Of a stretch of 64,000 nucleotides of DNA, positions 15,002-33,555 are shown piece after piece. The stretch is taken from the NCBI GenBank assembly GCA_949361645.1, contig OX442420.1, positions 4,385,882-4,449,881 on the forward strand, in the 5' to 3' direction. How positions within the stretch are numbered: the first letter of the stretch is position 1; each line of letters begins with the position of its first letter. The stretch is from Spongilla lacustris. Its lineage: Eukaryota > Porifera > Demospongiae > Spongillida > Spongillidae. The notes beneath the pieces were generated by a model that was not told the origin of the DNA, did no database searches, and worked only from the letters and a program-made list of their open reading frames with translations. Both the position numbers and the translations under genes were made by a program.

Positions 15002-15950
15002 CAGGGTCTTCACGAAAGAACGCAACGCTTTTGAACTGGAATATCTTTTCAACAGATGTTGCTAAAAATCTAGGATTTTGACACAAACATCAAGGGTTTA
15101 GGCAAATTTTTATCGATATTTTTAATTAAAATTTTATTAATCAAGGTTAATTAGTTTTAATAACTACATGCAATTAACCGCATCGAGGTGTAGCAATGTT
15201 AAGATATCAACTCTGAAACAAAAAACAAATAATCATAATTTTCTCATCACTAGAACCCAGCGTACGCTACGGAATCTATTTCAATTCGCGTACGCATGCG
15301 CATTGCGCACAATTATTAATTCTGGATAATGATGTCATCTGGATGCCACACCTCCACCTAACTTGGACACGTAGCCCCACCCTCGAGTCGTGTGCAACGA
15401 AACTGCCCCACCTTCTCTTTGCACGACGGTCCACGATGCGTTTGCCTTTTCTCGGCTACATCTTGTACACGCTAAGTATCTCGATTTCTGCAAAATCAAA
15501 TCTTGCGGTTTGCCGTTACGATCGCCTTACGTCGTACGGTCAGTTGAAATCATGTATGGTGCGCATCAAATTTAGCAAGGACGAGACAAACGAATCATTT
15601 AAAAACGAGATCCGTCTGATTTATCAGATTCTATCATACGTGAGTTAAAGTGCCGTACAGCTGTAGTAACGCAAAAACAAACACACACGTACACACATAC
15701 ACGTACACGCACACACACACACACACACAACACACACACACACACACACACACACACACACACACACACACACACACACACACACACACACACACACACA
15801 CACACACACACACACACACACACACACATACACACACGCACACGCACGCACGACCAGGCACGCACTGTCAGCACTTCAAGGATTAGAAGTCCATCCAACA
15901 AAATCAATTAATCACAACCTCGAAATAAAAACAGTCATGTAGCTTCATTG
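15002..15950 (+). repeat. Left terminal arm of the giant element
   Basis: The arm is unique sequence to about 15676, a CA microsatellite to about 15848, and then about 90 bases starting at GACCAGGCACGCACTGTCAG. Its complement is at 32661-33555. A frame of 101 codons at 15343 is not preserved in the partner arm because small indels shift it, so the arm is treated as non-coding. Palindromic sub-motifs such as GCGTACGC and GCATGCGCATTGCGCA occur near 15262-15310. Confidence 0.88.
15677..15848. repeat. CA microsatellite in left arm
   Basis: A nearly pure (CA)n tract with a few GTA interruptions at its edges. It corresponds to the more degenerate (GT)n tract at about 32760-32900 in the right arm. 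Confidence 0.97.
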
Positions 15951-18900
15951 GTACATTCTGCCTTTTTCATGTGTGTACAGCTTGTTATGGTACACTAGCA
16001 TCTTGTTACCAAACCTTGTTACAGTATGCATGTAGTTTGCCTGGATAGTGTGCCTTATTCTCAGGTGCAGTGCGCGTGTCTTGTCTTGGTAAATAAATAA
16101 TAAATTATGTAACTATTCTAAAGTTGTGTTTTTATCCTGCATTTGTTCCAGTATGTAGCCTGTCTTATTACTTTAAACATGCAATTAGTCTTGGTACACT
16201 GCCTTGTTATTCATGTAGGAACCTTATCTTGGGACACCCAACCTTGTTTACAGCATGCAGCTTGTGTTAATAGTTTGCCTTATTGCAGTCAGAAACTAGT
16301 CTTGATGGTAACCTGCCTTGCTAAAGTGTGTAGCTTGTCTGCCTGTTTATAAAATGCATGTGAGGCCTGTCTTGGTGCATAAAGTGTGCAGCTTGTATTG
16401 CTACACTGCTTTGTTACAGTACCTTGTTACAGTACCTCTGCACCAAATCCTACGTAGCTAGCCCTGATAGAACTGTAATTAGCTTGTGCATGTTAGCACC
16501 CTGCCTTGTTACTGCATTTAAATTGTCTTGGTACACAGATCCTTGTTACTGTATTTAGCTTATCTTGTTATTGTTTTTGAAAATGTAGCTTGTCTTGGTA
16601 CCCAGAGCCTTACTACTGTATTAAGCTTGTGTCAGCACCATGCCTTTACTGTATTTAGCTTGTCTTAGCACCATTCCTTGGTACTATATTTAGCTTGTGT
16701 TAGCACCATTCCTTCTTACTGTATTTAGCTTGTGTTGTGTCAGTACCATGCCTTGTTACTGTATTTAGCTTGTGTCAGCACCATGCCTTGTCACTGTATT
16801 TAGCTTCTGTAAGCACCATGCCTTGTTACTGTATTTAGTTTGTGTTAGCATCCTACCTTGTTACTGTATTTAGCCTGTCATGGTACACAGAGCCTTGTTG
16901 CTGTATTTAGCTTGTGTTAGATCCCTGCCTTATTACTGTGTTTAACTTGTGTTAGCACCCTGCCTTGTTACTGTATTTGGCTTGTTTTGGTACCCAGAGA
17001 CCTACCTTGTTACTGTTTTTTTTTTAAAGCAGCTTGCCTTGGTACCCAGAGCCTTGTTACTGTATTTTACTTGTGTTAGCGCCCTGCCTCGTTACTGTAT
17101 GTAGCTTGTCTTAGCACCCTGCCTTGTTACTGTATTTAGCTTGTGTTGGCACACTGCCTTGTTACTGTATTTAGCTTGTGTTAGCACCATGCCTTGTTAC
17201 TGTATTTAGCTTGTGTTAGCACCTTGCCTTGTTACTGTATTTAGCTTGTGTTGGCACACTGCCTTGTTACTGTATTTAGCTTGTGTTAGCACCTTGCCTT
17301 GTTACAGTATTTAGTTTGTGTTAGCACCATGCCTTGTTACTGTATTTAGCTTGTGTCTGCATTTAGCTTGTGTTAGCACACTGCCTTGTTACAGTATTTA
17401 GCTTGTCATAATACCCAGAGCCTTGTTACGGTATTTAGCTTGTGTTAGCACCATGCGTTGTGACTATTTTTAGCTGGTCTTAGCACCCTGCCTTGTTACT
17501 GTTTTTAACTTGTCTTGGTACGCAAAGCGTTGTTACTGTATTCAGCTTGTGTTACAACACTGCCTTGCTCCTGCATTTAGTTTGTGTTAGCACCCTGCCT
17601 TGTTAGTGTATTTAGCTTGTGTTAGCACCAGGCCTTGTTACTGTATTTAGCTTGTGTTAGCACACTGCCTTGCTCCTGCATTTATTTTGTGTTAGCGCCC
17701 TGCCTTGTTACTGTATTTAGCTTGTGTTAGCACCATGCCTTGTTACAGTATTTAGCTTGTGTTAGCACCATGCCTTGTTACTGTATTTAGCTTGTGTTAG
17801 CACACTGCCTTGCTACTGTATTTAGCTTGTGTTAGCTCACTGCCCTACCTTGTTACTGTTTTTCAAAAATGTAGCTTGGCATGGTACCCAGAGCCTTGTA
17901 TCTGTATTTAGCTTGTGTTAGAACCCTGCCTTGTGACGGTATTGAGCTTGATTTAGCTTCCTACCTTGTTACTGTATTGAACTTGTGTTAGCACCATGCT
18001 GTGTTAGTGTATTTAGCTTGTGTTAGCACCCTGCCTTGTTACTGTTTTAGCTTGTGTTAGTACCATGCCTTATTACTGTATTTAGCTTGTATTAGCACCC
18101 CTCCTTGTTACTGTATGTAGCTTGTGTTAGCACCCTGCCTTGTTACTGTATTTAGCTTGTGCTAGCACCCTGCCTTGTTACTGTATTCAGCCTGTGTTAA
18201 CACCCAGCTTTGTTACTGTATTTAGCTTGTGTTAGCACCATGCCTTGTTACTGTACTTCGCTTGTTTTAGCACCCTGCCTTGTAACTGTATTTAGCTTGT
18301 GTTAGCACCTGCCTTGTTACTGTATTTAGCTTGTGTTAGCACCATGCCTTGTTACTGTATTTAGCTTGTTACAGTATTTAGCTTGTGTTAGCACCATGCC
18401 TTGTTACTGTATTTAGCTTGTGTTAGCACCCTGCCTTGTTACTGTATTTAGCTTGTGTTAGCACCATGCCTTGTTTCTATATTTAGGTTGTGTTAGCACC
18501 ATGTCTTGTTACTGTATTTAGTTTGAGTTAGCACCCTGCCCTACCTTGATACTGTTTTTTTTAAATGTAGCTTGGCATGGTACCCAGAGCCTTGTTACTG
18601 TATATAGCTTGTGTTAGAACCATGCCTTCTGACTGCATTGAGCTTGATTTAGCTTCCTACCTTGTTACTGTATTTAACTTGTGTTAGCACCATGCTTTGT
18701 TAGTGTGTTTAACTTGTGTTAGCACCCTGCCTTGTTACTGTACTTGGCTTGTCTTGGTACCCAGAGCCTTGTTACTGTATTTAGCTTGTGTTAGCACCCT
18801 GCCTTGTTACTGTACTTGGCTTGTCTTGGTACCCAGAGCCTTGTTACTGTATCCAGCATGTGTTAGCACCCTGCCTTGTTACTGTGTTTAGCCTGTCATG

Positions 18901-32660: not shown

Positions 32661-33555
32661 TCAATGACTGCTTTTATTTCGAGGTTGTGATTGATTGATT
32701 TTGTTGGATGGACTTCTAATCCTTGAAGTGGTTATTCTGACAGTGCGTGCCTGGTCGTTCGTGTGTGCGTGTGTGTTTGTGTGTGTGTGTTTGTGTGTGT
32801 GTGCGTGCATTTGTGTGCGTGTGTGTGTGTGTGCGTGTGTGTGTGCGTGTGTGTGTGTGCGTGTGTGTGCGTGTGTATGTGTGTGCTTACGTGTGTGTTT
32901 GTTTATGGGTTACTACAGCTGTACGGCACTTTAACTCACGTATGATAGAATCTGATAAATCAGACCGATCTCGTTTTAAAAAGATTCGTTTGTCTCGTCC
33001 TTGCTAAATTTGATGCGCACCATACATGATTTCAACTGACCGTACGACGTAAGGCGATCGTAAGATTTGATTTTGCAGAAATCAGCGTGTACAAGATGTA
33101 GCGGAGGAAAGGCAAACGCATCGTGGACCGTCGTGCAAAGAGAAGGTGGGGCAGTTTCGTTGCACACGACTCGAGGGTGGGGCTACGTGTCCAAGTTAGG
33201 TGGAGGTGTGGCATCCAGATGACATCATTATCCAGAATTAATAATTGTGCGCAATGCGCATGCGTACGCGAATTGAAATAGATTCCGTAGCGTACGCTGG
33301 GTTCTAGTGATGAGAAAATTATGATTATTTGTTTTTTGTTTCAGAGTTGATATCTTAACATTGCTACACCTCGATGCGGTTAATTGCATGTAGTTAATAA
33401 AACTAATTAACCTTGATTAATAAAATTTTAATTAAAAATATGGATAAAAATTTGCCTAAACCCTTGATGTTTGTGTCAAAATCCTAGATTTTTAGCAACA
33501 TCTGCTGAAAAGATATTCCAGTTCAAAAGCGTTGCGTTCTTTCGTAAAGACCCTG
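32661..33555 (-). repeat. Right terminal arm of the giant element
   Basis: This is the reverse complement of 15002-15950. It differs by a few substitutions (for example in the first 15 bases), a 9-base and other small indels near 33090, and a more degenerate GT tract at 32760-32900. The high identity over unique sequence shows that the arms are either young or homogenised. Confidence 0.88.

Follow-up and report, generated by a model that had tools for sequence, protein, structure and literature searches.

In the 64,000-nucleotide stretch of Spongilla lacustris DNA analysed here (contig OX442420.1, positions 4,385,882 to 4,449,881 of the forward strand; the window in the following), positions 15002-33555 are occupied by a palindromic element of 18,554 bp, which is very probably a non-autonomous foldback DNA transposon. 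The element begins with CAGGGTCTTC and ends with the inverse of CAGGGTCTTC, and the dinucleotide TA stands directly outside both ends, at 15000-15001 and 33556-33557. In the same 248.6 Mb genome 15 complete copies with inverted ends were found, that of the window included, with lengths of 9.4-19.5 kb, and in all nine elements which were read at both ends the two termini fall on the same base and are flanked by TA. An earlier note on this DNA, made from the letters alone, had described a mobile transposon-like palindrome with TA duplication. The many copies, a related empty site and seven nearly identical copies support this description, and the inverted ends lie exactly where the note had placed them.

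Architecture of the palindrome and its copies

The alike inverted arms and opposed minisatellite arrays described earlier were confirmed as well. The left arm (15002-15938) could be aligned with the inverted right arm (33555-32664) with 91.6% identity over 943 columns, 57 of which were gaps, and its first 669 bp were 95.4% alike to the inverted right arm. The unique part of the left arm (15002-15670, plus strand, called L type), whose terminal approx. 35-50 bases are common to the short elements discussed below, is followed by a CA tract (15677-15851, plus), by the 'post' segment, which was found on the L-type side only (15855-16470, plus), and by a minisatellite array of a 35-bp unit (GCCTTGTTACTGTATTTAGCTTGTGTTAGCACCCT) at 16472-21633 on the plus strand. 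The centre of 731 bp (21640-22370, plus) contains a 19-bp tandem array at 22014-22142. Across it the 35-bp units are on the minus strand and oppose those of the left array; this right array is split into two parts (22371-27705 and 31021-32657) by a nested second transposon with its TTAA duplications (27706-31020). The GT tract of the right arm (32761-32902, minus) and its unique part (32909-33555, minus, R type), which carries a 9-bp and a 13-bp deletion relative to the L type, complete the element. The scan of the window against Rfam at the gathering score gave no match. When the first 339 bp were folded as single-stranded DNA, the z value was -2.67, with 1 of 100 shuffles as low; this was not counted as evidence. 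Origin of the minisatellite unit from the terminal repeat was considered and rejected, since 1174 of 2000 shuffles attained the local alignment score of 14.

The earlier note had proposed a genome search with the first approx. 300 bases of the arm and had regarded a single copy as fatal to its interpretation; the search gave several copies, TA standing outside all nine that were read, and with 15 complete copies the single-copy outcome did not occur. When the first 298 bp served as the query, the best 40 of 429 candidates were scored, and most of them stood in convergent pairs 9-19.5 kb apart. A 119-bp query (best 40 of 421 candidates scored) yielded much the same set. In the search with the centre all 21 candidates were scored; 15 of the 18 long matches lay within complete elements, and the other three lay inward of unpaired ends (C4, C20 and C25), at distances of 3, 19 and 39 kb. 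It was the first half of the centre that was matched in the 15 complete elements and these three further places. Short centre pieces at C3:6122425-6123550 were tied to no known family end. All 67 candidates of the search with the arm frame (see below) were scored too, and its 51 matches were assigned by position to arms or fragments of the family or to a palindrome in C24. Since every candidate was scored, the centre and arm-frame counts are less limited than those of the DNA searches. The copy count was obtained by combining the coordinates of the 298-bp, 119-bp and centre searches, each complete element having a centre. At least eight family ends were unpaired, the partner being absent among the matches listed. 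An R-type end at C4:8401508 and an L-type end at C4:8490657 stand 89 kb apart in reversed order, and are possibly the product of recombination between copies.

The nine elements read at both ends are the window element and eight copies joined from fetched pieces. Inverted arms, opposed 35-bp arrays and one centre are present in each of them, in the same order, and their flanks are mutually unlike, save for common repeats at some. The tenth stretch joined or fetched, that of C24, is a different palindrome without these ends. Because the 15 complete copies have the same ends and are spread over many contigs, and the nine read share one anatomy, both chance and a read-through artefact are very unlikely.

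Seven of the copies differ from each other (21 pairs) at 2-8 of 2,348-2,349 unique bases, i.e. by 0.09-0.34%; the more diverged C13 and C3b were excluded from this comparison. In C2b, a still older copy, the arm was 92.9% and the 'post' segment 81% identical. The near identity of the seven copies suggests that the window element moved recently. Both deletions of the R-type arm, 9 bp and 13 bp long, recur in all seven recent copies, and a few single bases of this arm vary among them. The R arm of C13 gave two pieces, the outer one alone being aligned, and both arms of the older C3b are without the two deletions. The deletions being common to all seven recent copies, the palindrome probably predates the recent spread and its arms are probably not being homogenised fast. 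The array lengths of the seven were 4.0-6.3 kb on the L side and 6.2-7.5 kb on the R side; with C13 and C3b included, the range extends up to 9.7 kb on the L side and down to 1.2 kb on the R side.

The sequence hit by the element is a host repeat (14721-15001) which is itself a mirror structure, and the other half of this repeat holds the uninterrupted site. This mirror half, on the minus strand, crosses the junction with one TA (...TTTTTTATA/TCTTGT), the junction being at 14726/14727 and the alignment reaching 92.4% over 288 columns. The same junction, with small indels, was observed in a repeat at 1252-1386 and in a repeat within the locus L060. Since the related empty site has one TA and the filled site has TA on both sides, the TA duplication is supported.

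The transposon nested in the right array (27710-31016; 3,307 bp) has 12-bp perfect inverted ends and is flanked by TTAA at 27706-27709 and 31017-31020. When the window sequence was joined across the insert, two insert bases included, the site, which lies in repetitive sequence, aligned straight through in all eight other joined copies; the exact uninterrupted 43-base site was found in six of them, C18 and C3b having no exact match. Among the nine elements read only the window copy contains the TTAA element, which is a real, later insertion. No further copy of it was found at the other loci examined, no genome search having been made for it. Its interior has repeats of the GTGTGAGGG type (28.7-29.2 kb) and, facing them in opposite orientation, repeats of the ACACTCCC type (29.4-30.4 kb), with approx. 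80% inverted match, and the nested element is a miniature foldback itself.

Shared termini and coding capacity

The terminal pattern, with up to 3 mismatches allowed, occurred 565 times in the genome (287 + 278), and the reversed-pattern control gave none. The palindromes share approx. 35-50 terminal bases with miniature inverted-repeat transposable elements (MITEs) of approx. 0.8 kb. Among the positions listed at least 17 terminus pairs approx. 0.8 kb apart represent such MITEs, about as many as the palindromes. In all six MITEs checked TA was found outside both ends; for L066 and L067 the reading covered a single end. Since the termini are shared, one transposase probably serves both the palindromes and the MITEs, as was proposed for Tetris and DAIBAM (see below).

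Several candidates for the driver of the family were rejected. The transposase of L061 is a DDE_3 frame lying outside the adjoining MITE. The zinc-finger protein of L066 is part of another multicopy sequence, probably a transposon, which interrupts a MITE. At this locus (C3:17344180) the MITE belongs to the family and the interrupting sequence has a zinc-finger-like start, LHCRVCGQRL; among the best 150 of 620 candidates the start had at least 22 genome matches, itself included, with at least 94% identity over 47-51 residues. The frame of L067 was without Pfam match, and the 601 bases read behind its inverted paralogue contain no CAGGGTCTT end. In L067 (C14:1450220), the interior of which was read to 1 kb, the CAGGGTCTT end and MITE-like subterminal sequence are followed by this 193-aa frame of a low-copy family; the inverted relative, 79% identical, lies 21 kb away. 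Pogo-like elements (DDE_1) were observed at L031, L032 and L055, with inverted ends of 62-64 bp which start with TACAGTGGGTGTTCGATTATAAGACC and are 100% identical within each copy. Their open frames reach 626 aa, and these elements are possibly active.

Apart from the nested insert, the stop-to-stop frames of the nine elements read reach at most 175 aa. An exon-like frame in the arm (15436-15644) is followed by GTGAGT at 15645. Eight elements have this frame open and 100% identical in their L arms; of the frames of the nine elements it was, as present in the window copy, the only one scanned against Pfam, and gave no match. As a gene it was rejected as unsupported, being broken in the R arms and in several copies and having no family match. 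That the arms nevertheless carry a small gene or promoter, so that the element would be gene-carrying or RNA-producing, seems improbable. The intact frame of the eight L arms favours this idea, together with the block 15242-15331 and the GTGAGT, both little changed in old copies, and with the L-type arm of C3b, where 1 of the 210 frame bases differs. However, apart from the broken R arms, the frame is interrupted by a stop in two L arms (C13 and C12), its matches are split in the L arms of C3:7593, C2:9411 and C17:5014, and it is broken also in the older relatives C24, C2b and C4b; the 51 arm-frame matches included no candidate host gene source, and the identity of the frame can be explained by recency alone. 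The block 15242-15331 contains GCGTACGC motifs (GCGTACGCTACGG...CGCGTACGCATGCGCATTGCGCA), little altered even in old copies, and the block and the GTGAGT are possible candidates for a promoter, a donor or a transposase site. If promoters exist in the arms and are active, long double-stranded RNA would result.

Proposed mode of movement and alternative explanations

The element is a discrete unit with CAGGGTCTT ends which stands at a TA target with TA on both sides. In the nine elements read, approx. 0.65 kb of unique sequence in each arm is followed by 1-10 kb of opposed 35-bp minisatellite. In the model suggested here, a transposase encoded elsewhere would recognise the terminal bases, and would cut and paste palindromes and MITEs alike, in trans. 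The TA target and the style of the termini indicate that this enzyme is likely to be of the IS630-Tc1-mariner kind. The palindrome would go back to an ancestor that preceded the recent spread, as the shared R-arm deletions suggest, and the arrays may have changed their length afterwards by slippage or unequal exchange.

Several points weigh against the foldback transposon model. Full reading covered nine of the 15 complete copies. A transposase for these ends was found neither in the copies read nor by the family searches: the genome has 157 DDE_1, 79 DDE_3 and 139 DDE_4 matches, and among the matches and termini listed, compared by eye, none was seen inside a CAGGGTCTT pair. The search for Transposase_1 gave nothing either in the genome or in the controls and was thus uninformative. 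Out of 30 DDE_1 loci cut out, L049, L056 and L057 hold a terminus match with up to 7 mismatches, of which only that of L049 looks like a genuine relative, with an orientation leading away from the transposase. The related empty site extends just 6 bases beyond the junction, the joined flanks of six MITEs revealed no empty site among the loci examined (0 of 6 spanning), and neither insertion polymorphism nor transposition was observed.

The features of foldback elements are present: long inverted arms, in-arm tandem repeats whose length varies between copies, little coding capacity (in the nine copies read), a target-site duplication and several copies. The TA duplication of the IS630-Tc1-mariner group is seen in the elements, in the MITEs and at the empty site. 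The AT duplication and GG-type ends of PHIS/ISL2EU do not occur, the element having TA and CAGGG ends, nor does the 8-10 bp duplication of the Mutator type, since TA stands on both sides in all nine copies and a longer match is possible in TA-rich flanks only. The element is filed as a foldback element and not as a proven Tc1/mariner member, because the TA feature is there but the defining enzyme was not found. The label "Tc1/mariner-like" given by the earlier note is supported by the TA target and the terminal style only; no transposase was present in the copies read or could be assigned to the ends.

Spread of the palindrome by segmental duplication or by recombination between arrays, and not by transposition, could leave unpaired ends (at least eight among the matches listed) and end pairs in the wrong order, as the two C4 ends 89 kb apart. 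However, nine copies stop at the same base beside TA, their flanks are unlike except for repeats common to some, and a related site with one TA exists; this explanation is very improbable, being largely refuted already by the exact ends and unlike flanks. Palindromes do produce assembly errors by hairpin read-through, but the probability of such an artefact is practically negligible here. As the earlier note had argued, the arrays and the CA/GT tracts differ and the TTAA insert is in one arm only, being present in one of the nine copies read; in addition there are 15 complete copies, and all seven recent ones have the same two R-arm deletions. A transposase outside the IS630-Tc1-mariner group, PHIS-type or undescribed, might also leave TA. 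The ends are linked to no transposase, and a dinucleotide duplication is not unique to Tc1/mariner, the target of ISL2EU being AT within A/AT/T (PMC4482050). On the other hand, ISL2EU ends usually start with GG and the duplication is AT (PMC4482050), in contrast to CAGGG and TA here, while Tetris was assigned to the Mutator type on its 8-10 bp duplication (PMC4079207) and the flanks of the present family share TA only. Such an enzyme is rather unlikely, though the least unlikely of these alternatives.

The MITEs of Tc1/mariner and pogo elements are non-autonomous, with a TA duplication and short terminal repeats, as found here. The palindromes differ from them in being about twenty times larger than the MITEs of their own family and filled with minisatellites. 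The sea urchin foldback TU and the Drosophila FB element have tandem repeats in both arms, like the present family, but their duplication is approx. 8-9 bp and their size smaller. The duplication of MuTAnT of Medicago is longer as well, whereas the flanks here share TA only. We know of no described foldback family with a TA duplication, the literature being judged by titles and abstract openings, and make no priority claim. MuTAnT targets TA microsatellites and was described as Mutator-like (PMC4486113). A foldback sharing its ends with a MITE is known from Drosophila virilis, namely Tetris and DAIBAM, and the same autonomous element was proposed to mobilise both (PMC4079207). Tetris, a foldback as well, resembles the present family in being non-autonomous, in the tandem repeats of its long inverted arms and in that no autonomous copy was found, and differs in its repeats of approx. 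220 bp and in its 8-10 bp duplication, for which Mutator was suggested (PMC4079207), as compared with a 35-bp unit, a TA duplication, 9-19 kb and seven near-identical copies. In Galileo of Drosophila, too, the inverted arms are long and contain tandem repeats which grow and shrink in number, and the arms are longest where the copy has no transposase; it belongs to the P superfamily, has a 7-bp duplication, and its arms reach approx. 1.26 kb in D. mojavensis (PMC3573991). In the present family the duplication has 2 bp, and in most of the copies read one side together with its array reaches 6-11 kb. The earlier note knew of no described Tc1/mariner-like element of this size and build; the foldback build has precedent, and the size and the TA target are what differ.

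A length of 9-19 kb is far above the size of the foldbacks compared here, and palindromes of great length are commonly regarded as unstable. The family offers a natural experiment on the tolerance and copying of 15-kb palindromes by the host, and the near-identical copies with unequal arrays offer another one on minisatellite change during transposon spread. The TA-target palindrome and the TTAA-target element nested in it are transposons of two unrelated kinds, and in each of them a short centre is flanked by mirror-image minisatellite arrays. Some process of the host, such as repair primed by hairpins or slippage of replication in transposition, might convert transposon interiors into opposed arrays, and elements of this sort might carry ready-made palindromes of 10 kb, together with new minisatellites, to further sites; we consider this a doubtful, speculative explanation.

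Related loci and neighbouring sequences

The palindrome of L023 (C24:2609780-2618021) has 3.7-kb arms which are 99.0% identical, and runs past both ends of the stretch. A frame encoding a jacalin-like lectin domain is present in each of its arms, and so is the part of the window arm from base 120 to base 669, the terminal repeat being absent. At L026 (C18:6179909-6186979) two full and one partial CAGGGTCTT termini in direct orientation and one inverted terminus are interleaved with repeated pieces, among them the 3' part of an alpha-L-fucosidase frame, and the sequence beyond the outermost ends is in part an inverted copy of itself. Among at least 120 matches to the fucosidase encoded there, the best from a named animal was that of the sponge Dysidea avara, with 50% identity, and the best overall had 97%; a sponge is thus a likely host.

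In the window, positions 37691-41510 of the minus strand hold long frames, perhaps an uncharacterised mobile-element gene; one has a SAP domain (E 8.9e-11) and the others have no Pfam match above the cut-off. Copia-like retroelement frames are located at 42591-45628 on the plus strand, and the first of them, the only one scanned, has integrase core and gag pre-integrase domains. The frame at 58216-58674, also on the plus strand, matches part of the secretin-family receptor domain 7tm_2.

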